Shown here in pieces: positions 3,445-36,015 of a stretch of DNA of 64,000 nt. Position numbers and translations under genes: made by a program. The stretch lies in contig NZ_BAABIS010000001.1 of assembly GCF_039542905.1 (NCBI RefSeq), positions 558,001 through 622,000 of the forward strand, read 5' to 3'. Source of the stretch: Kitasatospora terrestris (GTDB lineage: Bacteria; Actinomycetota; Actinomycetes; Streptomycetales; Streptomycetaceae). Positions within the stretch are counted from its first letter, which is position 1; each line of letters begins with the position of its first letter. The notes under the pieces are model-generated. The model saw nothing but the letters and a program-made list of their open reading frames with translations, had not been told where the DNA came from and did not search any database.

Positions 3445-4749
3445 TCAGTCCAGGTCGGCCAGCTTGCGCAGCAGCACGGCCCTCTCGGGAGCGTTGTTGC
3501 ACAGGCGGGCGGCCAGTTCCAGCTCGGTGCGGGCCTCGGCACCGCGGCCGAGGCGGAGCAGCAGTTCGCCGCGCACGCTCGGGAGCAGGTGCGAGCCCGA
3601 CAGGCGGCCCGAGGCGAGCAGGTCGTCGACCAGGGTCAGTGCCTCGTGCGGTCCGCTCGCCATCGCGACGGCCACGGCCCGGTTGAGCTCGACGACGGGT
3701 GAGGGGGCCACCCGGCCGAGTGCCTCGTAGAGGAGCACGATGCGCTCCCAGTCGGTCTCGGCCACGGAGGGCGCCGCCGCGTGGCACGCGGCGATCGCGG
3801 CTTGCAGACCGTACGGGCCCAGGCCCCGCCCGAGGGCCGCGGCCCGGCCGAGCGCGGCCAGGCCGCGGCGGATCGCCGAGCGGTCCCACAGCCGGCGGTC
3901 CTGGTCCTCCAGCAGCACCGCCTCGCCGTCCGGCCCGGTGCGCGCCGGGAAGCGTGCGGCGGTGAGCTCGAACAGGGCGAGCAGGCCGTGGGGCTCCGGT
4001 TCGGCGGGCAGCAGCGCGACCACGGTCCGGGCGAGTCGTACGGCCTCGTAGGCGACGTCGGGGCGCAGCAGGTCGTCGCCGGTGGTCGCGGTCGAACCCT
4101 CGGTGAAGATGACGTACAGGACGCTCAGGACAGCGCCGAGCCGTGCCGGCCGCTCCTCGGCCGGCGGCAGTTCGAAGGGGACGCGGGCGGCGGTGATGGT
4201 CTTCTTGGCCCGGGTGATCCGCGCCTGCACGGTCGGTGTGGGCACGAGGAAGGCCCGGGCGATCTCCTCGCTGGACAGGCCGGCCACCACGCGCAGGGTG
4301 AGGGCGACCCTGGCCTCGGGCGAGAGGACCGGGTGGCAGGCGGTGAACATCAGGGCGAGGACGTCGTCGTCGACCCGGTCGGGGTCCCACGGCAGCTCCT
4401 GCGGAGCCGTCGGCACGGCCGACGCCCCGGCGGTGAAACCGCCGTCGGACAGCTCCGCCCCGAGCACCGCGTAGCGCTCCCCGAGTGCCGAGGCACGGCG
4501 GAAGGCGTCGATGGCCCGCCGCCGCCCGGTCGCCAGGAGCCAGCCCACCGGGTCGTTCGGTGTGCCGTCCCGCGTCCAGGCGACGAGTGCCTCCGCGACC
4601 GCTTCCTGGGCGACGTCCTCGGCGAGTGCGAAGTCCCCGGTGTAGCGGGTCAGGGCGGCGACGATCCGCGCGGACTCGATCCGCCAGACGGCCTCGACGG
4701 CCCGCCGCGCCGCCTCGGCGACCGGCGGGCCGTCGACTGCTTCCGGCAT
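3445..4749 (-). CDS. ECF42-type RNA polymerase sigma factor with C-terminal helical extension
   Basis: A 434-residue protein, about twice the length of an ordinary ECF sigma factor. The N-terminal half has sigma region 2 (DVAQEAVAEALVAW, GWLLATGRRRAIDAFRR) and region 4 (LSSEEIARAFLVPTPTVQARITRAKK). The C-terminal half (from about residue 220) is the TPR-like helical domain typical of ECF42 (for example LYEALGRVAPSPVVELNRAVAVAM). Start ATG 4749 shares one base with the stop codon of the upstream YCII gene (TGATG), so the two are translationally coupled. ECF42 factors are known to be encoded with DGPF/YCII-domain proteins and to use their C-terminal extension for control instead of a classical anti-sigma factor. 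Targets often include YCII genes, so autoregulation is plausible. Confidence 0.93.
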   Translation of the reverse strand: MPEAVDGPPVAEAARRAVEAVWRIESARIVAALTRYTGDFALAEDVAQEAVAEALVAWTRDGTPNDPVGWLLATGRRRAIDAFRRASALGERYAVLGAELSDGGFTAGASAVPTAPQELPWDPDRVDDDVLALMFTACHPVLSPEARVALTLRVVAGLSSEEIARAFLVPTPTVQARITRAKKTITAARVPFELPPAEERPARLGAVLSVLYVIFTEGSTATTGDDLLRPDVAYEAVRLARTVVALLPAEPEPHGLLALFELTAARFPARTGPDGEAVLLEDQDRRLWDRSAIRRGLAALGRAAALGRGLGPYGLQAAIAACHAAAPSVAETDWERIVLLYEALGRVAPSPVVELNRAVAVAMASGPHEALTLVDDLLASGRLSGSHLLPSVRGELLLRLGRGAEARTELELAARLCNNAPERAVLLRKLADLD

Positions 4750-5168
4750 CAGAGCTGGCCGGTCCGCTCGCGCCACGCCCGCTCCTTGACGATCCACTCG
4801 TTGTCCTGCGGGAACTCCTCGATGCCGGGCACCCGGCGGACCTCGCACTTCGAGCCGGGGAACGCCGGCAGGCGCTTCGCCCACTCGACGGCCTCCTCCT
4901 TGGAGGCGACGTCGATCAGGTAGAAGCCACCGAACAGCTCCTTCGTCTCACCGTAGGGCCCGTCGGTGACCACCGGCGTCTCGCCGGCGAAGTCGACCAC
5001 CACGCCCTGCGACGGGTCGTCCAGGCCCTCCGCGGCCACGAGCACCCCCGCCCGGATCAGCTCCTCGTTGAAGCGGCCCACCGTCTCCAGCATCTCCTCG
5101 AACGGCGTGGACATCATCTTCGCCATCGACTCGTCCGTGCCACGCATGATCAGCATGTACTTCGCCAT
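4749..5168 (-). CDS. YCII-related (DGPF) protein, partner of the ECF42 sigma factor
   Basis: A 139-residue protein of the YCII/DGPF family: MAKYMLIMRG start, central VVTDGPYGETKELFGGFYLI (the DGPF-type motif, here DGPYGETKE) and a C-terminal EVRRVPGIEEFP tail. The fold is a ferredoxin-like alpha+beta barrel related to YciI, with suspected but unproven enzymatic activity. A clean GGAGGCAG ribosome-binding site precedes ATG 5168. It is the first gene of a two-gene operon whose second gene starts inside its stop codon. Conserved pairing with ECF42 in actinobacteria suggests it senses or acts on the signal, but that is not established. Confidence 0.92.
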   Translation of the reverse strand: MAKYMLIMRGTDESMAKMMSTPFEEMLETVGRFNEELIRAGVLVAAEGLDDPSQGVVVDFAGETPVVTDGPYGETKELFGGFYLIDVASKEEAVEWAKRLPAFPGSKCEVRRVPGIEEFPQDNEWIVKERAWRERTGQL

Positions 5169-12594: not shown

Positions 12595-15222
12595 TCAGCT
12601 CCCGTCGGGCAGGTCCTGCTCGGTCCAGATGGTCTTGCCGGTGGTGGTGTAGCGGGTTCCCCAGCCGCGGGTCATCTGGGCGATGATGAACAGCCCGCGC
12701 CCGCCCTCTTCGTCGGTGGCGGCGTGGCGCAGGTGGGGCGAGGTGTGCCCGGTGTCCGACACCTCGCAGATCAGGCCGCGGTCCCGGATGAGGCGGATGC
12801 GGACTTGCCCGCGGGCGTACCGGACGGCGTTGGTGACCAGCTCGCTGACGATGAGCTCGGTGGTGAACGACAGTTCGTCCAGGCCCCAGTCGCGCAGCTG
12901 TCCCGAGGTCAGCCGGCGCGCGGTGGAGACGGCGGTGGGCTCGGCGGACAGTTCCCATTCGGCGACCCGTTCGCGGTCCAGGAGTCGGGTGCGGACCAGG
13001 AGCAGCACCGCGTCGTCGTCCACCGGGCCGGGCAGCAGGGTCTCCAGGGCCCGGTCGCACAGCTCTTCCAGCGAGTGCCGGTGGGACGCGAGGACGCCCG
13101 CCAGCAGCTCGCGGCCCTCGTCGGCGGCGTGGTCGGGGGTGTGGATCAGGCCGTCGGTGAGCAGTGCGAGCAGACTGCCCGGCGGGAGGGCGAGCTCGGT
13201 GCTCCGGTACGGCGGCCCGTCGACTCCGAGCGCGGGCCCGACCGGGAGCTCCGGGTGGATGGCGAGACCACTTGCCGGGTCGACGATCGTGGGTGGCGGG
13301 TGCCCGGCGAGGGCGAGGCAGCACCGGCCGGTGACCGGGTCGTACACCGCGTACAGGCAGGTCACTCCCACGGCCCCGGTGGCGCGGTCCGCGGTCCGGT
13401 CCCCCGTGGGGTCCTCGGTGTCCTGCCGGACGGCGTCGTCGAGACGGGAGAGCAGGTCGTCCGGGTCGAGGTCGAGGCGGGAGAGCACGCGCACGCTGGT
13501 CCGCAGGCGTCCCATGGTGGCCGCGGCGGCCAGCCCGGACCCGAGGACGTCGCCGACGACCAGGCCGACCCGGCTGCTGGAGAGCGGGATGACGTCGAAC
13601 CAGTCCCCGCCCACGCCGGAGCGGCCGTCGGCGGGGACGTAACGGTTGGCGTGCTCGACGGCCGTGTGCGGCGGCAGCAGGCGCGGCAGCAGCCGCCGCT
13701 GCAGGCGGAGGGTCGCCGTGTGCTCGCGGGTGACGAACGGCATGAGCAGGGCGCCGATCAGCAGCGCTCCGAGCCCCAGCACGGTGACCCCGCCGGTCCG
13801 GCCGATGACCGGCAGGTCCACCGCGGTCGCGCCGTAACCGGGGTCGGCGTACACGTCGAAGGCCGCGTAGCAGAAGAGGCCGAGCATGATGATCCCGCCG
13901 ACGCCCGGCAGTACGCCCTTGAACAGGAGGTCCCGTCGGCTGCGGGTGAGCACCCGGCGGTAGAACCAGACGCATGCGAAGCCGGTGAGGCCGTAGTAGA
14001 AGGCGATGGCCAGGCCGACCGAGGCGATGGAGTCCGCCAGGACGTTGTGGCTCACCGCGGTGAGCAGCACCAGCAGGCCGACCGACGCCAGGCCCATGCC
14101 GACCGTGGACCAGGTCGGGGTGAGGTACCGGCGGTGCAGGCGGGCGAAGCGCGAGGGCACCGCCTTGTGCGCGGCCATCGAGAAGACCGTGCGGGCCACC
14201 GGCAGGATCGTGGTCTGTGTGGAGGCGGCCGCCGAGGTCAGGACCATGAAGATCAGCAGCTTGGTGAGGAACTCGCCCGCACCCTCCCCGCCGAAGACCG
14301 CCCGGCCGAGGCCGGAGAGCACGTCGTCGGAGTTGGCGGCGTTGCCGAGTCCGATGCCCTCGCTGCCGACTCCGGCGAACGCCTGCGCGGAGGTGGACAC
14401 CAGGGTGTAGACGATCAGGAGGAGCACCGTCGACATCACGGCGGCGCGGCCCGGGATGTGCTTGCTGTCGGCGGTCTCCTCGTTGACCGTGACCGCGGTG
14501 TCCCAGCCCCAGTAGATGAAGACGGCGGCCAGGAAACCGGTGGTGAACGCCTGCGGCGAGGCGATCCGGGTCGGATCGAACCAGGACGCGGAGACGTGGA
14601 CGGCCGTCGCCGGGCCGTCGGCGCTGTAAACCTTCACCAGCGCCACGACGGCGAACAGGAGCAGCACGGCCACCTCGATGCACAGCAGCCAGCGCTGCAC
14701 GGCGGCCGAGATCTCGATGCCGATGTAGCAGATCGCGGTCATCACGGTGATCCAGACGGCCCCGGCCACCGTCGTCCACAGCCGGTCGTCGGCGAGGGAG
14801 TCCGCGCCCACCAGGCGGAAGCCGTAGATTCCGGCGATCTCCGCGAGGTTCGCCATCACGAGGACGTCGGCGACGATGATGCCCCAGCCGCCCATCCACC
14901 CGGTGCGGGGCCCGAACGCGCGGGTCGCCCAGGTGAACGTCGTACCGCAGTCGGCGTCGGTGGCGTTGAGCTCCCGGTAGGCGTGCGCGATCAGCAGCAT
15001 CGGCACGAAGGCCAGCATGATGACCACCGGGGTCTGCAGGCCCACGCCGGCGACGATCAGGCCGAGCGTCGCGGCGAGGCTGTACGCCGGGGCGGTCGAC
15101 GAGATCCCCATGACCACGGACGAGAAGAGGCCCAGGGCACCGGCCCTCAGCCCCTTCTCGCCGGCGCCCGCACCGGGCGCCAGTGCCCCGGGGGACGCGG
15201 CGAGACCACCGAAGAGCTTCAC
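12595..15222 (-). CDS. Amino-acid permease fused to PP2C phosphatase and RsbW-like kinase domain
   Basis: A single 875-residue ORF with three parts. Residues about 25-490 form an APC-superfamily amino-acid permease (start LRAGALGLFSSVVMGISSTA, then YWGWDTAVTVNEETADSKHI, about 12 spans). Without a break, TATLRLQRRLLPRLLPPH (about 494-511) leads into a SpoIIE-type PP2C domain (GVGGDWFDVIPL, VVGDVLGSGLAAA, LTDGLIHTPD, DDDAVLLL carrying the metal-binding Asp). The final 120 residues are a HATPase of the RsbW/SpoIIAB type (N box ELVTNAVRYA, G1 EVSDTG, G2 EGGRGLF). Start GTG 15222 has a weak ribosome-binding site. The output modules are those that set the phosphorylation of STAS anti-sigma antagonists. 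Fusion to a permease suggests that amino-acid transport or occupancy controls partner switching, which is inference. The junction is in frame with uniform codon use, so it does not look like a recent accident. Confidence 0.9.
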   Translation of the reverse strand: MKLFGGLAASPGALAPGAGAGEKGLRAGALGLFSSVVMGISSTAPAYSLAATLGLIVAGVGLQTPVVIMLAFVPMLLIAHAYRELNATDADCGTTFTWATRAFGPRTGWMGGWGIIVADVLVMANLAEIAGIYGFRLVGADSLADDRLWTTVAGAVWITVMTAICYIGIEISAAVQRWLLCIEVAVLLLFAVVALVKVYSADGPATAVHVSASWFDPTRIASPQAFTTGFLAAVFIYWGWDTAVTVNEETADSKHIPGRAAVMSTVLLLIVYTLVSTSAQAFAGVGSEGIGLGNAANSDDVLSGLGRAVFGGEGAGEFLTKLLIFMVLTSAAASTQTTILPVARTVFSMAAHKAVPSRFARLHRRYLTPTWSTVGMGLASVGLLVLLTAVSHNVLADSIASVGLAIAFYYGLTGFACVWFYRRVLTRSRRDLLFKGVLPGVGGIIMLGLFCYAAFDVYADPGYGATAVDLPVIGRTGGVTVLGLGALLIGALLMPFVTREHTATLRLQRRLLPRLLPPHTAVEHANRYVPADGRSGVGGDWFDVIPLSSSRVGLVVGDVLGSGLAAAATMGRLRTSVRVLSRLDLDPDDLLSRLDDAVRQDTEDPTGDRTADRATGAVGVTCLYAVYDPVTGRCCLALAGHPPPTIVDPASGLAIHPELPVGPALGVDGPPYRSTELALPPGSLLALLTDGLIHTPDHAADEGRELLAGVLASHRHSLEELCDRALETLLPGPVDDDAVLLLVRTRLLDRERVAEWELSAEPTAVSTARRLTSGQLRDWGLDELSFTTELIVSELVTNAVRYARGQVRIRLIRDRGLICEVSDTGHTSPHLRHAATDEEGGRGLFIIAQMTRGWGTRYTTTGKTIWTEQDLPDGS

Positions 15223-18830: not shown

Positions 18831-20006
18831 GTGACCAGCGATCTGACGGACCTTCGGCTGATGGCGCGTCACCTGGAGGGCGACCCCGAACAGGCCGACT
18901 TCCTACTGGACTTGTCGAACATCGTGCGGGAGCGGTCGCTCGGCGGCGCCGACCGCAGCTCGCTGCACCGCCTGCGGCTGGTCCTGGACGCCCTGCGCGA
19001 CCTCACCGGCGACCGCGAGGTGACCGTCCACGCGATCGCCGACGACAACCTGCTCAACCCGGCCCACGACGCCGACTTCCCCGACCCCGCGGAGCCCGCG
19101 CTGCTGCGCGAGTGGCACGACCGCTCCCTGATCACCGCCCACGCCACCGCCGACCCGGACCTGCTCGACCATGCCAAGGCCCTCGGCACCCCCGTGATCA
19201 GCAGCGACAACTTCAAGGGCCACCGCGGCCGCCACGAGTGGATCCAGGGCAACCAGGACCGGTTCCTCAAGCCGGAGCGGGTCGGCCCCTCGGTGCGGCT
19301 GGTCCCCCGGGACATGCGGTTCTTCGCCGATCGCGAGGTGTCCAGCGCCGACGAGCACGACCGGCTGCGCGCCGCCCGCCTGCTCGACCAGCGCGGCAGG
19401 CCCCGCTCCGACGTGCTGGAGCACGCCTGGCAGTGCCCGGTCGTCGGCTGCACGCCGAAGCCCGCGCTGGCACGCGGCAAGGTGGTCTGCCAGGTCCACC
19501 GGACGCTGTTGCACGACTGCGGCCCGCGCCGGCCCCGGGTGCAACTCAAGATCACGGTCGACGGGGTCTGCCGGGCCTGGGACAACCTGACCCATGACGA
19601 CACCCGGGAGTTCGTCCTCGGCCGCGGCCACCTGGACCGGATCGAGGATCGCCACCTCGACGAGGACCGCCGCCGGCGGATCAGCCGACGGCACCTGGTC
19701 CTGGTCTCCCGGCACGGCACGCTGCGCGTGCTCGACCTGAGCACGGCGCTCAGCTCCGTCCGCACGCGCAGGCCCGGTGGCGAACCGACCCCGTGGGAGC
19801 CCCTGCCGCACCTGAACCAGCTGTCGGCGGGGCAGTCACGCGAGGAACTGCTGCGCGCCTTCGGCCCGGACGACGAGATCGAGATCGTGCCGGGCGTGCT
19901 GCTCTCCCGCAGCGGGCAGCGCTGGCCCGGCGAACGGCACGAGGGGGTGCGGGCCAAGCCGCCCAGGCGCCCGCGCGACGGGGACGACCTGACCCGCGTC
20001 GGCTGA
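18831..20006 (+). CDS. PIN-like ribonuclease domain, zinc-binding linker and FHA domain
   Basis: A 391-residue protein. Residues about 15-155 resemble the NYN/Zc3h12a-type PIN RNase fold: acidic DLSNIVRE (27-34), HAIADDNLL (about 66-74), a helix, then KALGTPVISSDNFKGHR with the terminal acidic SSDNF. A middle segment (about 200-235) has CPVVGCTP, then CQVHRTLLHDC, a likely zinc knuckle. The rest is an FHA domain (FVLGRGHLDRIE, RRRISRRHLVLVSRHG, LRVLDLS), which in this family binds phosphothreonine. GTG 18831 is preceded by GGAG at 9 bases. A Ser/Thr kinase gene follows on the same strand 72 bases later. The natural inference is that the FHA domain reads phosphorylation by that kinase and controls RNA cleavage. 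Confidence 0.8.
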   Translation: MTSDLTDLRLMARHLEGDPEQADFLLDLSNIVRERSLGGADRSSLHRLRLVLDALRDLTGDREVTVHAIADDNLLNPAHDADFPDPAEPALLREWHDRSLITAHATADPDLLDHAKALGTPVISSDNFKGHRGRHEWIQGNQDRFLKPERVGPSVRLVPRDMRFFADREVSSADEHDRLRAARLLDQRGRPRSDVLEHAWQCPVVGCTPKPALARGKVVCQVHRTLLHDCGPRRPRVQLKITVDGVCRAWDNLTHDDTREFVLGRGHLDRIEDRHLDEDRRRRISRRHLVLVSRHGTLRVLDLSTALSSVRTRRPGGEPTPWEPLPHLNQLSAGQSREELLRAFGPDDEIEIVPGVLLSRSGQRWPGERHEGVRAKPPRRPRDGDDLTRVG

Positions 20007-20078
20007 CGCCTCGACGGACGGGCCGAACGGCGACACCAGGGCGGGTCCCCGAGCCGGCCGAACGGAGAAGAGGGCGAG

Positions 20079-23000
20079 TTGGAGCACCTGCGGCCGGACG
20101 ATCCGGAGACGATCGGCCCGTACCGGCTGTTCGCCCGGCTGGGCCAGGGCGGGTGGGGAACGGTCTACTTCGCGCGCAGCCCGTACGGCGCCGGGGTGGC
20201 GCTCAAGACCATCCACCCGCATCTCCTGGCCGGGAACCCCGAGCTGCTTCGCCGCCGGTTCGCCCGGGAGGTGCGGGCGGCCCGGACGGTGGTCAGCGAG
20301 TACACCGCCACCCTGGTGGAGGCCGACCCGCACGCCACCGAGCCCTGGTTCGCCACCACGTTCATCCGCGGTGTCGATCTGCCGACCGCGCTGGAGCAGT
20401 GCGAGGGGCCCCTGCCGGAGCGGACCTGGCGGGTGGCGGCCACCGGGCTGGTCGACGCCCTCGGGGCCGTCCACGCCGCCGGGCTGGTCCACCGCGACCT
20501 CAAGCCGGGCAACATCCTGCTGGCCGGCACCCGGCCGTACGTGGTCGACTTCGGCATCGCCCGGCACCTCACCCTCGAGGACGGCACCACCCTCACGGGG
20601 AACGCCGACCTCGGCACGCTCAACTTCGCCGCCCCCGAACTGCTCCGCAAAGAACCGGTCGACAGCTCCTGCGACGTCTTCTCGCTGGGCCTGGTGCTGG
20701 CTTACGCGGCGCTCGGCCGCCATCCGTTCGGTCCCGGATCCGAGCTGGAGATCAGCTGGAACATCGTCCGCGGGCGGCCGGACCTGCGCGGGCTGGCGCC
20801 GACCGTGGAGCGGGTCGTCCGCCCCTGCCTGGAGCCGGACCCGGCCGACCGACCCGGCCTGGCCGAGCTGGCCGGGCTGCTGCCGGCCGCCGTTTCCCCC
20901 GACGAGCAGGAGTGGCTGCCGCGCCCGCTCTGGCGGGTTCTGGAGGACCGCTCGGCCCTCGCCATCAACCTGCGGGCTCCGCTGCGGCTGCCGGGACGGG
21001 AACGAGGGCCCGACGAGCCGTGGGGCGCTGACAGCTCGCCGGAAGCCGGGGCCTGGACACCGGTGCCGGCCCCGCCCAGGTCCGACCCGGGAGCCGGCGG
21101 GCCGGACCCGGAGGGCCCGACCGTGCCACCCGGCGACCGCAGACCCGGCCGGCACGAGCCGAGCGCCGCACCGCCCGGTCGACCGGACGGGGACGACATC
21201 ACACTGCCCCCGCACGCGCCCGGCCCGGCCGCCGCACGCGGCGCGACTGCGGCGGCGGCGACCATGGTCAAGGCAGCCGTCACGGCACCTGCCGCAGCGC
21301 CGGCCGCCGCAGCGACCGCACCGACTGCCACCGCACCGACCGAAACGACCGCCGCACGGCCGGCAGCGGCGAAGGCACCCTCGACCTCGGCAGGCGCGAG
21401 GAACGATGCCGCGGCCGTGCCGCCTGCCCCCGCGAACCCGCCTGCCACCGCGAACCCGCCCGGCACCAAGCACCTGGCCGCTGCCAGGGCCGGCGACAGC
21501 GAGGCCATGCGGCTGGTCGCCCGAGCCCAGCAGGCGACCGGGGACCAGGAGTCCGCCCTGCAGTGGCTCCTGCGGTCGGCTGCGGCCGGCAACCCCACCG
21601 GGGCGTACCAGGCCGCGGAATTGATCCAGCAGAGCTTCCCGAAGCAACGGCACCGGCTGGTCGACCTCTACCGGAGCGCGGCCGAGGGCGGAGTCCGCGA
21701 AGCTCCCGCACGGCTCGGCGAGTTGCTGGAGCAGGACCGGAAGCAGTCGGCCGAAGCACCCCACTGGTACGCCAAGGCCGCCGCGCTCGGCGATGACACG
21801 GCCGCGAAGGCGGTGGCCCGGTTGCGCGGCGGCGCACCGCACGTTCCACCGTCCGTCGCTGAGCTCGCACTGCTGGGTGAGCACCAACTGCCCGCCGTGC
21901 AGGGCAGCCTGCACTCCATGCTGATCCTCGGCAGCTGGTACCAGAACGCCGCTCTGAACGAACCCGCGCTGCACTGGTACGCGCGGGCCGCCGACACCGG
22001 CAACGCCCACGCGATGCTGCTGGCAGCGCAGTTGCTGGCCCAGGACCCGGCACAGGAGGCGACGGCGCTGGAGTGGTACCGCCGCGCCGCCCGTGCGGGC
22101 AACACCGCGGCCATGCACGTACTCGGCCGTCGGTGGCGCGAGAAGGGCGACATCAAGGCGGCCCTCAACCGCTTCCAAGCGGCGGCCGAGAAGGGCCACC
22201 GCCCCTCCATGGTCGAGGCCGCGGAGCTGCTGGAGCAGGAGCAGCAGCCGGACCGGGCGCTGGAGTGGTACCGCCGCGCCGCCGCGAAGGGGGACCAGAA
22301 GGCCGTCCGGGAGGCGGAGCGCCTCGGCTCGGCGCAGGCCCGGACCGCCGCACCGGCGGCCGGGAAGACCGCACCGGCACCCGCCGCGAAGAGAGCCGCC
22401 TCCGCGCCCGCACCCGTACCCACACCCGCGCCCGCGCCCGCGCCCGCGCCCGCCGCCAAGAAAGCCGCGCCGAAGAAGAGCAGCACGCAGCAGGCTGGGG
22501 CGGCCACCGTCCTCAGCGCCGCCAAGCGGCGCCAGATCGCCCACCTGTGCGAGAGCGCACTCGCCCGCGAGGAGCAAGGGCGGTTGGAAGGCGCTCTGCA
22601 GCAGTACCTCAGGGCCGAGGCGATGGGTGACCGGACAGCCAAGCGGGAGGCGGCCAGACTGTCCGTCAAGCTCGCGGGCAAGGGGAAGAGCGCCGGACGC
22701 CAGAAGCTGCGCCAGCGGGGACTCAGCCGCTACCGCGAGCTCGCCGCGGACGGTGACCGGCAGTCCCTCCGCGCTCTGGAAGAGCTCGCCCGGGCCGGGG
22801 ATGTGGGCGTGGCCCTCGATCTGGCCCGGCTGGATCCGCAGAACGCCCGGCGCTGGCTCCTCGTCGCGGTGGATGCGGGCAATGCCCCGGCCATGCGAGC
22901 GCTGGGCCAGAACTTCATCGCAACGGGCACCGAGGAGGACTTCCTCACCGGCCTGGACTGGCTGCGACGCGCCGGGGAGAGGCAGATCACCTCGGCCATC

Positions 23001-23183
23001 CTGGACGGCGCCCGCGCCCTCGAACAGCGCGGCGACTTCCGGGCTGCCCTGGACTGGTACCGCCGGGCGGCGGACCGCGGCAACGCCACGGCTGCCAAGC
23101 GGCTGTCCCGTCTGGAAGCGAAGCACCCCGGAACCGCCTTCTGGATCCGGCTCTCGGACCGCTGGCGGCGCCCGCGGGGGTGA
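20079..23183 (+). CDS. Ser/Thr protein kinase with C-terminal Sel1-like repeats
   Basis: A 1034-residue protein. The N-terminal kinase domain (about 12-265) has all key motifs: glycine loop LGQGGWGTVYFA, lysine in VALKTI, catalytic loop HRDLKPGN, DFG in VVDFGIARHL, and APE as AAPELLRK. A long Pro/Ala-rich linker (about 290-460) follows. Then come many Sel1-like helical repeats with the ALEWYRRAA-GN consensus (about 465-750), a second Ala/Pro/Lys linker (about 750-808), and further repeats to the end. TTG 20079 is the start, supported by GGAGAAGAGGG upstream. There is no membrane segment, unlike PknB-type kinases. It probably forms a two-gene unit with the PIN-FHA gene. Sel1-like repeats are protein-protein scaffolds. 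Confidence 0.9.
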   Translation: MEHLRPDDPETIGPYRLFARLGQGGWGTVYFARSPYGAGVALKTIHPHLLAGNPELLRRRFAREVRAARTVVSEYTATLVEADPHATEPWFATTFIRGVDLPTALEQCEGPLPERTWRVAATGLVDALGAVHAAGLVHRDLKPGNILLAGTRPYVVDFGIARHLTLEDGTTLTGNADLGTLNFAAPELLRKEPVDSSCDVFSLGLVLAYAALGRHPFGPGSELEISWNIVRGRPDLRGLAPTVERVVRPCLEPDPADRPGLAELAGLLPAAVSPDEQEWLPRPLWRVLEDRSALAINLRAPLRLPGRERGPDEPWGADSSPEAGAWTPVPAPPRSDPGAGGPDPEGPTVPPGDRRPGRHEPSAAPPGRPDGDDITLPPHAPGPAAARGATAAAATMVKAAVTAPAAAPAAAATAPTATAPTETTAARPAAAKAPSTSAGARNDAAAVPPAPANPPATANPPGTKHLAAARAGDSEAMRLVARAQQATGDQESALQWLLRSAAAGNPTGAYQAAELIQQSFPKQRHRLVDLYRSAAEGGVREAPARLGELLEQDRKQSAEAPHWYAKAAALGDDTAAKAVARLRGGAPHVPPSVAELALLGEHQLPAVQGSLHSMLILGSWYQNAALNEPALHWYARAADTGNAHAMLLAAQLLAQDPAQEATALEWYRRAARAGNTAAMHVLGRRWREKGDIKAALNRFQAAAEKGHRPSMVEAAELLEQEQQPDRALEWYRRAAAKGDQKAVREAERLGSAQARTAAPAAGKTAPAPAAKRAASAPAPVPTPAPAPAPAPAAKKAAPKKSSTQQAGAATVLSAAKRRQIAHLCESALAREEQGRLEGALQQYLRAEAMGDRTAKREAARLSVKLAGKGKSAGRQKLRQRGLSRYRELAADGDRQSLRALEELARAGDVGVALDLARLDPQNARRWLLVAVDAGNAPAMRALGQNFIATGTEEDFLTGLDWLRRAGERQITSAILDGARALEQRGDFRAALDWYRRAADRGNATAAKRLSRLEAKHPGTAFWIRLSDRWRRPRG

Positions 23184-25187: not shown

Positions 25188-25694
25188 TCAGCTTCCGCAC
25201 CCGCAGCCGGCGGCGGCCTTCGCCTCGGCCGGCGTCTGCGCGGGGTCGAGCGCCTGCTCGTCGGGGGTGCAGCAGGCGGTGGTGCCGCAGCAGGCGTCCG
25301 GGGCGGTGGCGGCCTTGTCGAGGGTGTCGGCGTCGGCCTTCACGACGTAGACCTCCCAGGGCTCCTTGCCGGGGCCGTGGACCCAGACCTTGTCCTGGAG
25401 GGCGTAGCAGCAGGAGGTGTCGCTCTCCTCGAAGGTGGCCAGGCCGGCGTCCTTGAGCCGGGTGGTGGCGGCGGTGACCTGCTCGGTGCTCTCGACCTCG
25501 ACGCCGAGGTGGTCGAGGCGGGTGTCCTCGCCCGGCTCGCCCTCGATGAGGACGAGCTTGAGCGGGGGCTCCGCGACGGCGAAGTTCGCGTAGCCGGGGC
25601 GGCGCTTGGCGGGCTCGGTGCCGAAGAGCTTGGAGTAGAAGGCGATCGAGCCTTCGAGGTCGGCAACGCGCAGGGCGAGCTGAACGCGGGACAT
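25188..25694 (-). CDS. arsI: ArsI/CadI-type metalloenzyme (organoarsenical C-As lyase family)
   Basis: A 168-residue VOC-fold protein. The N-terminal half has RVQLALRVADLEGSIAFYSK and FAVAEPPLKLVLIEG. A conserved His in LDHLGVEVES and the vicinal cysteines in ESDTSCCYALQDKVWVHGP follow, the pair known in ArsI to bind trivalent organoarsenicals. The C-terminus is Cys-rich (ACCGTTACCTP, GCGCGS), a probable extra metalloid-binding tail. ArsI enzymes are Fe(II)-dependent dioxygenases that break the carbon-arsenic bond of methylarsenite. The gene is divergent from arsR with an 88-bp shared control region containing a 16-bp palindrome. Confidence 0.9.
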   Translation of the reverse strand: MSRVQLALRVADLEGSIAFYSKLFGTEPAKRRPGYANFAVAEPPLKLVLIEGEPGEDTRLDHLGVEVESTEQVTAATTRLKDAGLATFEESDTSCCYALQDKVWVHGPGKEPWEVYVVKADADTLDKAATAPDACCGTTACCTPDEQALDPAQTPAEAKAAAGCGCGS

Positions 25695-25721
25695 GGCGGT
25701 CTCCCCGATCCGAGGTCTTGT

Positions 25722-25737
25722 ATCGACAGCTGTCGAT
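25722..25737. promoter_or_regulatory. 16-bp palindrome, candidate ArsR operator
   Basis: The perfect palindrome atcgacagctgtcgat lies between the divergent arsI and arsR starts. A related partial sequence with tgtcaac/acatgtcga lies just before the arsR start (about 25766-25790). ArsR-family repressors bind such inverted repeats and are released by arsenite; assignment is by position. Confidence 0.7.
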
Positions 25738-25782
25738 GCCGCGAGCTTGCCTCTTCGAATAGATGACTGTCAACATAGACAC

Positions 25783-26160
25783 ATGTCGAATCTGGAACTT
25801 GAGGTGCTCGACCAGGACGAAGCGGCCGCGTGCTGCTCGCCGATGGTCCGCGAGCCGCTCGGCGAAGAGGCCGCCGTCGACCTGGCGAAGATGTTCAAGG
25901 CCCTCGGGGACCCGGTCCGCCTGCGGCTGCTGTCACTGATCGCCTCGTACGACGGCGGCGAAGCCTGTGTCTGCGACCTGACCGGCCCGTTCGACGTCTC
26001 GCAGCCGACGATCTCCCACCACCTCAAGGTGCTGCGCGAGGCCGGCCTGGTCGCCTCCGAGCGTCGCGGGACGTGGGTCTACTACTGGGTCCTGCCGACC
26101 GCGCTCGCGAAGCTGTCCGCACTGCTCCAGGCCCCGGCCGCCACCGGGGGCGCGAGATGA
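25783..26160 (+). CDS. arsR: ArsR family transcriptional repressor
   Basis: A 125-residue winged-helix protein. The N-terminus has a CC pair (EAAACCSPM). The core has LAKMFKALGDPVRLRLLSLI, then the metalloid-binding region GGEACVCDLTGPF (Cys-x-Cys within the DNA-recognition helix region, as in ELCVCDL of ArsR) and the recognition helix SQPTISHHLKVLREAGLV. ATG 25783 lies only 45 bases after the palindrome. Its stop codon overlaps the ATG of the aquaporin gene (ATGA), so the arsR-aqpS-arsC-arsN genes form an operon. Expected to repress both arms of the cassette until arsenite binds. Confidence 0.95.
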   Translation: MSNLELEVLDQDEAAACCSPMVREPLGEEAAVDLAKMFKALGDPVRLRLLSLIASYDGGEACVCDLTGPFDVSQPTISHHLKVLREAGLVASERRGTWVYYWVLPTALAKLSALLQAPAATGGAR

Positions 26161-26900
26161 TCGCGACAGCGCCGCTCGGCCGCCGGGCGGCCGTGGAGTT
26201 CGTCGGGACGGGCGCCCTGGTCGCCGTCGTGGTCGGCTCCGGCATCCAGGCCACGAAGCTCTCCCAGGACGTCGGCCTGCAGCTGCTGGCCAACTCGCTG
26301 GCGACCGTGTTCGGCCTCGGCGTGCTGATCCTGCTGCTCGGCCCGGTCTCCGGCGCCCACTTCAACCCGGTCGTGACCCTGGCCGCCTGGTGGACCGGCC
26401 GCGACGGCGGCGGGCCCGGCCCGCGGGAGGTCGCGGCCTACGTCCCGGCGCAGATCGGCGGCGCGGTCGGCGGCGCGGTGCTCGCGGACGCGATGTTCGC
26501 CGAGCCGCTGGTCGCCTGGTCCACCCACGACCGCTCGGCCCCGCACCTGTGGCTGGGCGAGGTCGTGGCGACCGCCGGCCTGGTCCTGCTGATCTTCGGT
26601 CTGGCCCGCGCCGGCCGCGCGCACTTCGCCCCCATCGCGGTCGCCTCCTACATCGGCGCCGCCTACTGGTTCACCTCCAGCACGTCCTTCGCCAACCCCG
26701 CGGTGACCGTCGGCCGGGCGTTCACCGACACCTTCGCCGGTATCGCCCCCGCCTCCGTGCTGCCGTTCATCGCCGCCCAGCTCGTCGGCCTGGCCGTCGG
26801 CATCGCCCTGGTCGTGGTCCTGTTCGGCCGCCCGGCCCTGGCCGCCGAGGACGCCGTGGTCCCCCACGGCGAGCGCCACCCGGCCGCCGCCGGCCGCTGA
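26157..26900 (+). CDS. aqpS: MIP-family aquaglyceroporin of AqpS type
   Basis: A 247-residue six-span channel. The two pore half-helices carry NPV (GAHFNPVVTLAAWW, about residue 63) and NPA (SFANPAVTVGRAF, about 180). In ars operons, AqpS is known to serve as a channel letting arsenite or methylarsenite leave the cell down its gradient, complementing arsenate reduction by ArsC. The start overlaps arsR by 4 bases. No ArsB or Acr3 pump is present in this cluster, so the channel is the only exit route encoded here. Confidence 0.92.
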   Translation: MIATAPLGRRAAVEFVGTGALVAVVVGSGIQATKLSQDVGLQLLANSLATVFGLGVLILLLGPVSGAHFNPVVTLAAWWTGRDGGGPGPREVAAYVPAQIGGAVGGAVLADAMFAEPLVAWSTHDRSAPHLWLGEVVATAGLVLLIFGLARAGRAHFAPIAVASYIGAAYWFTSSTSFANPAVTVGRAFTDTFAGIAPASVLPFIAAQLVGLAVGIALVVVLFGRPALAAEDAVVPHGERHPAAAGR

Positions 26901-26939
26901 ACCCCTCCCTGCCGTTCCTGTCCGAAGGATGAACCGCTC

Positions 26940-27359
26940 GTGAGTACTCCCGCCGTCCCGTCCGTGCTGTTCGTCTGCGTGCACAACGCCGGCCGCTCCC
27001 AGATGGCCGCCGCCTTCCTGACCCGCCTCGGTGGTGACCGCGTCGAGGTCCGATCCGCCGGCTCCGCGCCGGCCGACGCGGTGAACCCGGCGGTGGCCGA
27101 GGCCATGGTCGAGGTCGGCATCGACATCTCCGCCGAGGTCCCGAAGGTGCTGACCGTCGAGGCGGTGCAGGCGTCCGACGTGGTGATCACCATGGGCTGC
27201 GGCGACGCCTGCCCGTACTTCCCCGGCAAGCGCTACCTGGACTGGAAACTGGAGGACCCGGCCGGTCAGGGCGTCGACGCCGTCCGGCCGATCCGCGACC
27301 AGATCGAGGCCCGGATCCGCCACCTGCTCGTCGAACTCGGCGTCGAGGCCGCCGCATGA
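26940..27359 (+). CDS. arsC: Arsenate reductase ArsC, low-molecular-weight phosphatase type
   Basis: A 139-residue protein. The signature loop VCVHNAGRSQMA (C-x5-R-S) lies near residues 13-24, followed by the family's SAGSAPADAVNPAVAEAM and VVITMGCGDACPYFPGKRYL with the redox Cys pair (GCGDAC). These are the features of thioredoxin- or mycothiol-linked arsenate reductases. GTG 26940 is used, with GAAGGA 13 bases upstream. Converts arsenate to arsenite. The stop codon overlaps the start of the acetyltransferase gene (ATGA). Confidence 0.93.
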   Translation: MSTPAVPSVLFVCVHNAGRSQMAAAFLTRLGGDRVEVRSAGSAPADAVNPAVAEAMVEVGIDISAEVPKVLTVEAVQASDVVITMGCGDACPYFPGKRYLDWKLEDPAGQGVDAVRPIRDQIEARIRHLLVELGVEAAA

Positions 27360-30690: not shown

Positions 30691-31536
30691 GAAGTCATCT
30701 CATTTGGGCTTGTAGGCTGCTCGCGTGACGATCGTGGAGCGTCTGGTGCCGGACGAGTTGTGGGAGCTGTTCCAGCGGGTGGTGCCGGCGGCGCCGACCC
30801 GGCCGCAGGGTGGTGGCCGCCGGCGCCACGGGGACCGGGAGGTGCTGGCCGCGATCGTGTTCGTGGCCACGTCCGGGTGCACATGGGCCCAGCTGCCGCC
30901 GTGTTTCGGACCGTCCGGGCCGACCGCGCACCGCCGGTTCACGGAGTGGACCGCGGCCCGGGTGTGGGCCAAGCTCTACCGCCTGGTCCTGGACGAACTC
31001 GGCGCTCGCGGCGAGCTGGACTGGTCCAGGTGCGCGGTCGACTCGGTGAACATGCGCGCCACGAAAAGGGGGAGCTGACGGGTCCGAATCCTGTCGATCG
31101 GGGCAAGTTCGGGTCGAAGATCCACTTGCTCACCGAACGCACCGGTCTGCCCATCTCGCTCGCGATCTCCGGCGCCAACCTGCACGACAGCCAGGCCCTG
31201 ATCCCGCTCGTCGAGGCGATCCCGCCGATCCGCTCCCGCCGCGGCCCGAGACGGCGCCGGCCCGGCAAGCTCCACGGCGACAAAGCCTACGACCACCGCT
31301 TCATCCGCTCCTACCTGCGTCGACGGCAGATCACCCACCGCATTGCCCGCCGCGGCATCGAGTCCTCGACCCGCCTCGGCCGGCACCGCTGGGTCATCGA
31401 GCGGACGGTGGCATGGCTCGGCGGTTTCCGCCGGCTCCACCGCCGCTACGAACGCAAAGGCACCCACTTCGCCGCTTTCGCCACCATTGCCGCCGCCCTC
31501 ATCTGCCACCGCAGACTGGCCAAATGAGATGACTTC
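30691..31536 (+). mobile_element. IS-A copy 1 (IS5 family, 846 bp)
   Basis: Terminal inverted repeats: GAAGTCATCTCATTTGG at 30691-30707 and its reverse complement ending at 31536 (17 bp, with one further pair differing). The flanking bases are TTA on each side (30688-30690 and 31537-31539), a 3-bp target duplication of the TNA type. The element encodes one transposase in two overlapping frames. It is identical, as far as can be read, to 35170-36015. Confidence 0.95.
30725..31527 (+). CDS. IS-A transposase, two frames joined by probable -1 frameshift (copy 1)
   Basis: Frame A (30725-31078, 117 residues) starts with MTIVERLVPDELWELFQRVV and holds the DUF4096-type N-terminal domain and the first catalytic Asp (RCAVDSVNMRA). 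Frame B lies one base back and runs to 31527 with the second Asp (LHGDKAYDHRF) and the Glu (HRWVIERTVAWLGGF). The frames overlap at the A4G5 run 31064-31072, a typical slippery site; a -1 shift gives one DDE transposase. The stop TGA lies inside the right inverted repeat. Programmed frameshifting is known in the IS427 group of IS5; here it is inferred from frame geometry and motifs. Confidence 0.9.
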
Positions 31537-35170: not shown

Positions 35171-36015
35171 AAGTCATCTCATTTGGGCTTGTAGGCTGCT
35201 CGCGTGACGATCGTGGAGCGTCTGGTGCCGGACGAGTTGTGGGAGCTGTTCCAGCGGGTGGTGCCGGCGGCGCCGACCCGGCCGCAGGGTGGTGGCCGCC
35301 GGCGCCACGGGGACCGGGAGGTGCTGGCCGCGATCGTGTTCGTGGCCACGTCCGGGTGCACATGGGCCCAGCTGCCGCCGTGTTTCGGACCGTCCGGGCC
35401 GACCGCGCACCGCCGGTTCACGGAGTGGACCGCGGCCCGGGTGTGGGCCAAGCTCTACCGCCTGGTCCTGGACGAACTCGGCGCTCGCGGCGAGCTGGAC
35501 TGGTCCAGGTGCGCGGTCGACTCGGTGAACATGCGCGCCACGAAAAGGGGGAGCTGACGGGTCCGAATCCTGTCGATCGGGGCAAGTTCGGGTCGAAGAT
35601 CCACTTGCTCACCGAACGCACCGGTCTGCCCATCTCGCTCGCGATCTCCGGCGCCAACCTGCACGACAGCCAGGCCCTGATCCCGCTCGTCGAGGCGATC
35701 CCGCCGATCCGCTCCCGCCGCGGCCCGAGACGGCGCCGGCCCGGCAAGCTCCACGGCGACAAAGCCTACGACCACCGCTTCATCCGCTCCTACCTGCGTC
35801 GACGGCAGATCACCCACCGCATTGCCCGCCGCGGCATCGAGTCCTCGACCCGCCTCGGCCGGCACCGCTGGGTCATCGAGCGGACGGTGGCATGGCTCGG
35901 CGGTTTCCGCCGGCTCCACCGCCGCTACGAACGCAAAGGCACCCACTTCGCCGCTTTCGCCACCATTGCCGCCGCCCTCATCTGCCACCGCAGACTGGCC
36001 AAATGAGATGACTTC
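35170..36015 (+). mobile_element. IS-A copy 2, inserted in the right end of IS-B
   Basis: Offset of exactly 4479 bases from copy 1 with the same sequence and the same terminal inverted repeats. TA is present on both sides (35168-35169 and 36016-36017), a 2-bp duplication. The insertion lies within the right inverted repeat of IS-B, so IS-B can no longer use that end normally. Confidence 0.95.
35204..36006 (+). CDS. IS-A transposase, two frames joined by probable -1 frameshift (copy 2)
   Basis: Same protein as copy 1: frame A 35204-35557, slippery A4G5 run at 35543-35551, frame B to 36006, with the same three catalytic residues. No difference from copy 1 was seen in any reading frame, pointing to very recent transposition. 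Confidence 0.9.

Follow-up and report, generated by a model that had tools for sequence, protein, structure and literature searches.

A stand-alone PIN-zinc-FHA nuclease gene paired with a Sel1-repeat Ser/Thr kinase gene in Kitasatospora terrestris: a candidate phospho-signaling module

Actinobacteria encode dozens of Ser/Thr kinases, most of which have no known targets. Several described systems share features with the gene pair considered here. In the PknG-GarA/OdhI system, autophosphorylated threonines outside the catalytic core of PknG recruit the FHA domain of GarA, the complex is stabilized by the TPR domain, and the FHA partner is phosphorylated at a terminal ETT motif (PMC8546545). The vWA-MoxR (VMAP) ternary conflict systems include combinations of PIN with zinc and of PIN with FHA domains as effector parts, and most of the kinase domains found in these systems are inactivated (Kaur et al. 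2020, PMC7159879). For the individual proteins, the closest points of comparison are the nucleases ZC3H12A/Regnase-1 (MCPIP1), KHNYN and PRORP and the kinase AfsK.

The window, by which we mean the whole 64,000-nucleotide stretch of DNA that was analyzed, belongs to the soil bacterium Kitasatospora terrestris and occupies the 558-622 kb interval of an 8.57-Mb contig (NZ_BAABIS010000001.1). It contains a nuclease gene followed, after 72 bases and on the same (+) strand, by a kinase gene. The first (18831-20006; GTG start at 18831, stop at 20006) encodes a PIN/NYN-zinc-FHA protein of 391 amino acids, and the second (20079-23183; TTG start at 20079, stop at 23183) encodes a Ser/Thr kinase of 1034 amino acids with Sel1 arrays. 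Both are real genes, as orthologs with matching starts are present in eight genomes; gene calls in the relatives were made with a simple codon-usage caller written for the analysis, and Kitasatospora xanthocidica is among the close relatives. The neighbors of the pair in the window are an epimerase gene, a DUF1232 gene and unmatched genes. A preliminary description had reported this arrangement, with a PIN/NYN-like nuclease, a Cys/His zinc segment and an FHA domain in the first protein, and had proposed that the kinase binds the FHA domain and thereby targets or gates RNA cleavage. The observation is confirmed by the present analysis and the interpretation is partly supported. Two outcomes that would have counted against the earlier reading, a pair that other genomes do not keep and a first domain for which no PIN fold with acidic site is predicted, were checked and neither arose.

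The window nuclease matched no model in the Pfam, NCBIfam, PADLOC and PHROG collections, the Pfam NYN model (PF11977) among them, and its domains were confirmed through relatives and structure. Searched against the relatives, PF11977 gave subthreshold matches at loci L031 and L033 and passed only in a distant paralog (L055, positions 3884-4891), with 27.6 bits versus a cut-off of 23. AlphaFold and Foldseek assign residues 1-165 (18831-19325) to a PIN (NYN) RNase domain of the Regnase/ZC3H12 type. The model of this segment, for which the alignment comprised four sequences taken from the window and the genome contigs, reached a pLDDT of 79.9 and a pTM of 0.78; the full-length model was of low confidence (pLDDT 57), with the PIN domain alone modeled well. 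The top PDB match was the PIN domain of Regnase-1, an RNase known from human immunity (5h9v, E 3.4e-6, probability 1.00), and every one of the 29 PDB matches at E<=0.001 was to ZC3H12A-C (Regnase), KHNYN or plant PRORP. The acidic site comprises D27, D71, D108 and D126, with N30 beside D27 (18909-19208). Across a 40-member alignment of stand-alone family members, D71, D108 and D126 are invariant (40/40) and D27 is Asp in 33 and Glu in 6, a pattern expected for a PIN-type metal site. Sequence and model together indicate that the protein is probably a metal-dependent, Regnase/NYN-type enzyme that would act as an RNase. A VapBC-like toxin-antitoxin reading was set aside, as the partner is a kinase and the PIN domain is of the NYN type.

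Downstream of the PIN domain lies a zinc segment, C202-x4-C207-x12-C220-x2-H223 (19428-19511), recognized by conservation: the three cysteines are found in 40/40 members, and H223 is His in 34 and Cys in 6. The extended PIN (NYN) fold, the acidic site and a zinc segment after the PIN domain are features in common with ZC3H12A/Regnase-1, KHNYN and PRORP. Unlike these proteins, the window nuclease is bacterial and below Pfam detection, has a C-C-C-H/C spacing that differs from CCCH fingers, and carries an FHA domain.

Conserved residues, the family profile and Foldseek place this FHA domain at about residues 235-362 (19533-19916). Its phosphothreonine-binding residues, G264-R265 (GR) and S285-R286-x-H288 (SxxH), are present in all 40 members. 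The Pfam FHA model did not match the window nuclease; among family members it was above cut-off in L031, L033 and L062 and reached E<=0.1 in 12 of 21. Compared with structures, the nuclease family profile retrieved the FHA domain of M. tuberculosis FhaA (TB39.8) at E 3e-5 and GarA/OdhI at about 4e-4, and a Foldseek search found the APLF FHA domain (E 0.009, on a low-confidence model). In the close clade, positions 306-307 do not carry the Asn-Gly pair through which FHA domains contact the ligand backbone.

In the second protein, the kinase domain (20124-20870) was identified by a Pfam Pkinase match above cut-off (E 2.5e-32), a motif check and a tree, and its catalytic motifs (VALK, HRDLKPGN, DFG and APE) are intact. 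The domain is most similar to AfsK, at 205.7 bits, far below the equivalog cut-off of 1300; unlike AfsK, the protein has Sel1 arrays where AfsK has its own C-terminal region, and it shows no obvious transmembrane segment. Sel1 repeats (PF08238) were detected with 43.7 bits against a cut-off of 30.7. The C-terminus had been portrayed as Sel1-like repeats enclosed by two Pro/Ala linkers; repeats and linkers are both there, but the second linker divides the repeats rather than bounding them. Pro/Ala linker 1 (residues 301-460, 20979-21458), in which 3.8% of positions are invariant among orthologs, is followed by Sel1-like array 1 (residues 461-760, 21459-22358; Sel1 match and ortholog alignment), and the ortholog alignment then delimits Pro/Ala linker 2 (about residues 761-830, 22359-22568) and Sel1-like array 2 (residues 831-1034, 22569-23180). 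PHROG models match the pair only in its kinase and Sel1 segments. Sel1-like repeats related to those of the kinase were also seen at L097, L098 and L099, in proteins of 908-939 amino acids with a helix-turn-helix-like N-terminus.

The pairing of the two genes is conserved. In the close clade, composed of the window and seven relatives with 61-68% identity, a Sel1 kinase gene lies directly downstream of the nuclease gene in 8/8 cases, at distances of 24-163 bases and in about five different gene neighborhoods. Of 70 genomes in the genus, 6 contain the close nuclease, and these are also the ones that contain the kinase Sel1 array, surveyed by a single-protein search, with both found at matching places; the other genomes have neither, and weaker Sel1 matches in G070, G027 and G031 are in other, non-kinase proteins. 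In the wider family, a kinase gene adjoins the nuclease gene at 28 of 42 loci, which were chosen by nuclease similarity and not by kinase presence and which are related by descent, so that the counts are not independent events. The kinase gene may be downstream, upstream, divergent or convergent. In clade A, a Sel1 kinase gene is downstream on the same strand; in clade B, the kinase is mostly divergent, AfsK-like and provided with a likely membrane segment; and in clade C (L056-L062), a PknB-like kinase of 397-406 amino acids is encoded 5-66 bases downstream. In one genus, the clade C pair keeps a constant chromosomal place beside genes that by eye resemble those for LexA, NrdR and a DinG-type helicase. 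A kinase tree places the family-paired kinases in three separate lineages, each clustered, and this indicates that the kinase link was formed or re-formed repeatedly.

The same counts bear on whether the two genes might be neighbors by chance or through shared ancestry, with no functional link, a reading that the 14 of 42 loci lacking an adjacent kinase would favor. The window genome has 35 kinase-domain matches, and, taking it to have about 7,500 genes, we estimate a roughly 1% chance that a random gene has a kinase neighbor, against the 28 of 42 loci and three kinase lineages found; moreover, none of the surveyed genomes of the genus has the close Sel1 array but lacks the nuclease. We regard an accidental pairing as very improbable. 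The loci with no adjacent kinase imply that the RNase can work with other kinases or independently of any. Nuclease and kinase divergence are correlated in a mirror-tree comparison (r 0.93), a correlation that shared species history can also produce.

The literature provides a partial precedent for this architecture. The preliminary description had named no system with exactly this pair. The architecture is not without precedent, as PIN-zinc and PIN-FHA combinations are both among the vWA-MoxR effectors; the stand-alone, kinase-paired PIN-zinc-FHA form appears to be undescribed in the open-licence papers searched. As in those effectors, the window protein has a PIN domain with a C-terminal zinc segment and a PIN domain combined with FHA. 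It differs from them in standing alone, in keeping all acidic residues and in being paired with a kinase whose motifs are intact. The C-terminal stretch of SAV_2336-type proteins (L034 and L035) is homologous to the window PIN-zinc region at 25-27% identity, and VMAP-C and AAA genes were found only at these two loci. There, the degenerate PIN-zinc end of the SAV_2336-type proteins (L034, 9194-13258; L035, 6473-10198) lies in VMAP ternary loci and apparently lacks the last active-site Asp. A separate cassette (L055, 2764-7895) consists of genes for a kinase-like protein, a Zc3h12a-type NYN nuclease (PF11977 above cut-off), a vWA protein and a SpoIIE phosphatase, and is located near an oppositely oriented PIN-FHA gene.

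These relationships raise the question of an immune function, in which the pair would be a simplified relative of the vWA-MoxR ternary systems and act in abortive infection, with the kinase sensing invasion through its Sel1 array and unleashing the RNase against translation. The listing of such effectors by Kaur et al., the position of the degenerate relative beside VMAP-C/trypsin and MoxR genes, and the scattered occurrence of the close clade in differing gene surroundings would all fit such a role. However, no vWA, MoxR or VMAP gene was found adjoining the pair at the window locus, and the clade C pair occupies a constant chromosomal position. Kinase matches in PADLOC are generic (those to PD-T4-6 cover the kinase domain, and the model has no stated cut-off), and the equivalog test for MAD6, a methylation-associated defense kinase, gave 76.2 bits, far below its cut-off of 460. 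Flanking genes that were tested matched no defense model, with the exception of one HEAT-ARM_XIII match in L023, and a search of viral contigs, phages and plasmids returned no copies of the nuclease. The phage-defense role suggested earlier is not supported, nor is the stress-induced translation shut-off proposed as its alternative, and we consider an immune effector unlikely.

Two conserved threonines, predicted to be phosphorylated on the basis of their conservation, would connect the kinase with the FHA domain. The first is T388 (codon 19992-19994), in the C-terminal tail of the nuclease (DDLTRVG), which was absent from the earlier reading of the locus. A threonine is kept at this position in 39 of 40 relatives, in every branch of the nuclease family and inside a short variable tail, with contexts that include DDLTRVG, AEPTRFV, AEPTMMQ and GGLTVLG. 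When the 39 tails bearing the threonine were realigned with the FHA end as anchor, it fell in one column in 39/39, whereas 60 shuffles averaged 7.7 and never exceeded 17. This anchored test was used because short tails align freely, as seen in a tail-only alignment that gave 8 observed against up to 9 in shuffles. The same tail threonine occurs in a second, distant PIN-zinc-FHA gene of the K. terrestris genome (L032, 9227-10351, at about 7.868 Mb), which has no adjacent kinase.

The second is T375 of the kinase (codon 21201-21203), in the sequence GDDITLPP of linker 1, a putative autophosphorylation and FHA docking site. All 8 orthologs keep both T375 and P377 of this (T/I)T(L/R)P motif, within a linker that is otherwise highly variable. 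Of 29 further kinases encoded in the genome, only 2 have a looser form of the motif and none has TTLPP. The two contexts are unlike, with T375 followed by L-P-P and T388 by R-V-G, and neither resembles a classical FHA ligand. By conservation, the strongest candidate phosphosite would be that in the nuclease's own tail. Together with the three paired kinase lineages, these candidate threonines in linker and tail support the proposed functional link between kinase and FHA domain.

The fold, the FHA domain and the adjoining kinase suggest that phosphorylation switches this bacterial RNase. With the conserved acidic, zinc and FHA residues, the intact kinase motifs, the pairing across several lineages and the two conserved threonines also in hand, we interpret the pair as a two-gene phospho-signaling module in which a switch similar to PknG-GarA/OdhI would control a Regnase/NYN-type RNase, and assign this interpretation a probability of about one half (roughly 0.52). 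Speaking against it are the 14 loci with no adjacent kinase, the missing FHA Asn-Gly pair of the close clade, and the unlike, atypical contexts of the two threonines. The kinase would autophosphorylate T375 in the TTLPP motif of its linker, among other sites, and the nuclease FHA domain would dock on the phosphorylated residue, guided by the Sel1 arrays acting as scaffold and signal input. The docked kinase may then phosphorylate T388; binding of the modified tail by an FHA domain, either its own or that of a second copy, would switch or relocate the RNase. In this scheme, the RNase activity, the phosphorylation and docking steps, the direction of switching, the RNA target and the signal are inferred. 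The logic of PknG-GarA/OdhI would in effect be copied, with an RNase replacing the inhibitor of metabolic enzymes. Both systems have a Ser/Thr kinase with repeats (of the TPR type in PknG), a flexible threonine-bearing segment and an FHA partner with a terminal tail that is, in the present case, predicted to be phosphorylatable. Unlike PknG, the window kinase is AfsK-like, its repeats are Sel1 rather than TPR, and its linker comes after the kinase domain rather than as an N-terminal extension; unlike GarA/OdhI, the FHA domain is fused to an RNase and the tail is C-terminal, reads DDLTRVG and lacks the ETTSVF motif.

An ordinary endoribonuclease of RNA processing or decay under phospho-control, tuned by growth or nutrient kinases and not a killing effector, would account for the constant setting of the clade C pair and its closely spaced kinase gene, and PknG-GarA is itself a metabolic switch. 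The rarity of the close clade (6 of 70 genomes) is nevertheless ill-suited to core housekeeping, and we judge this role to be rather improbable. The phospho-signaling module would give the eukaryotic-like kinases found in relatives of Streptomyces a direct connection to RNA decay. Somewhat more tentatively, and at slightly less than even odds, we propose that the Streptomycetaceae hold a family of phosphothreonine-switched Regnase-type RNases that were wired repeatedly and independently to different Ser/Thr kinases and whose near-universal tail phosphothreonine binds their own FHA domain. Such a family, if real, would constitute a direct kinase-to-RNA-decay pathway in bacteria. It offers candidate kinases matched to defined substrates, with RNA cleavage as the enzymatic output, along with predictions for two phosphosites and for the catalytic residues, and it presents in stand-alone form an effector described to date from the vWA-MoxR systems.

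Other parts of the window contain several additional features. An unusual fusion of 875 amino acids, encoded on the minus strand at 12595-15222, joins an amino acid permease, a SpoIIE-type phosphatase and a HATPase domain, all above Pfam cut-offs. The region at 25188-27359 has an ArsR-type regulator (HTH_5 above cut-off), a glyoxalase-family gene and channel-like and phosphatase-like reading frames, and looks like an arsenic-resistance cluster, partly judged by eye. Two reading frames of 165 amino acids at 31030-31527 and 35509-36006, with the same start and orientation, are apparently copies of one insertion sequence.
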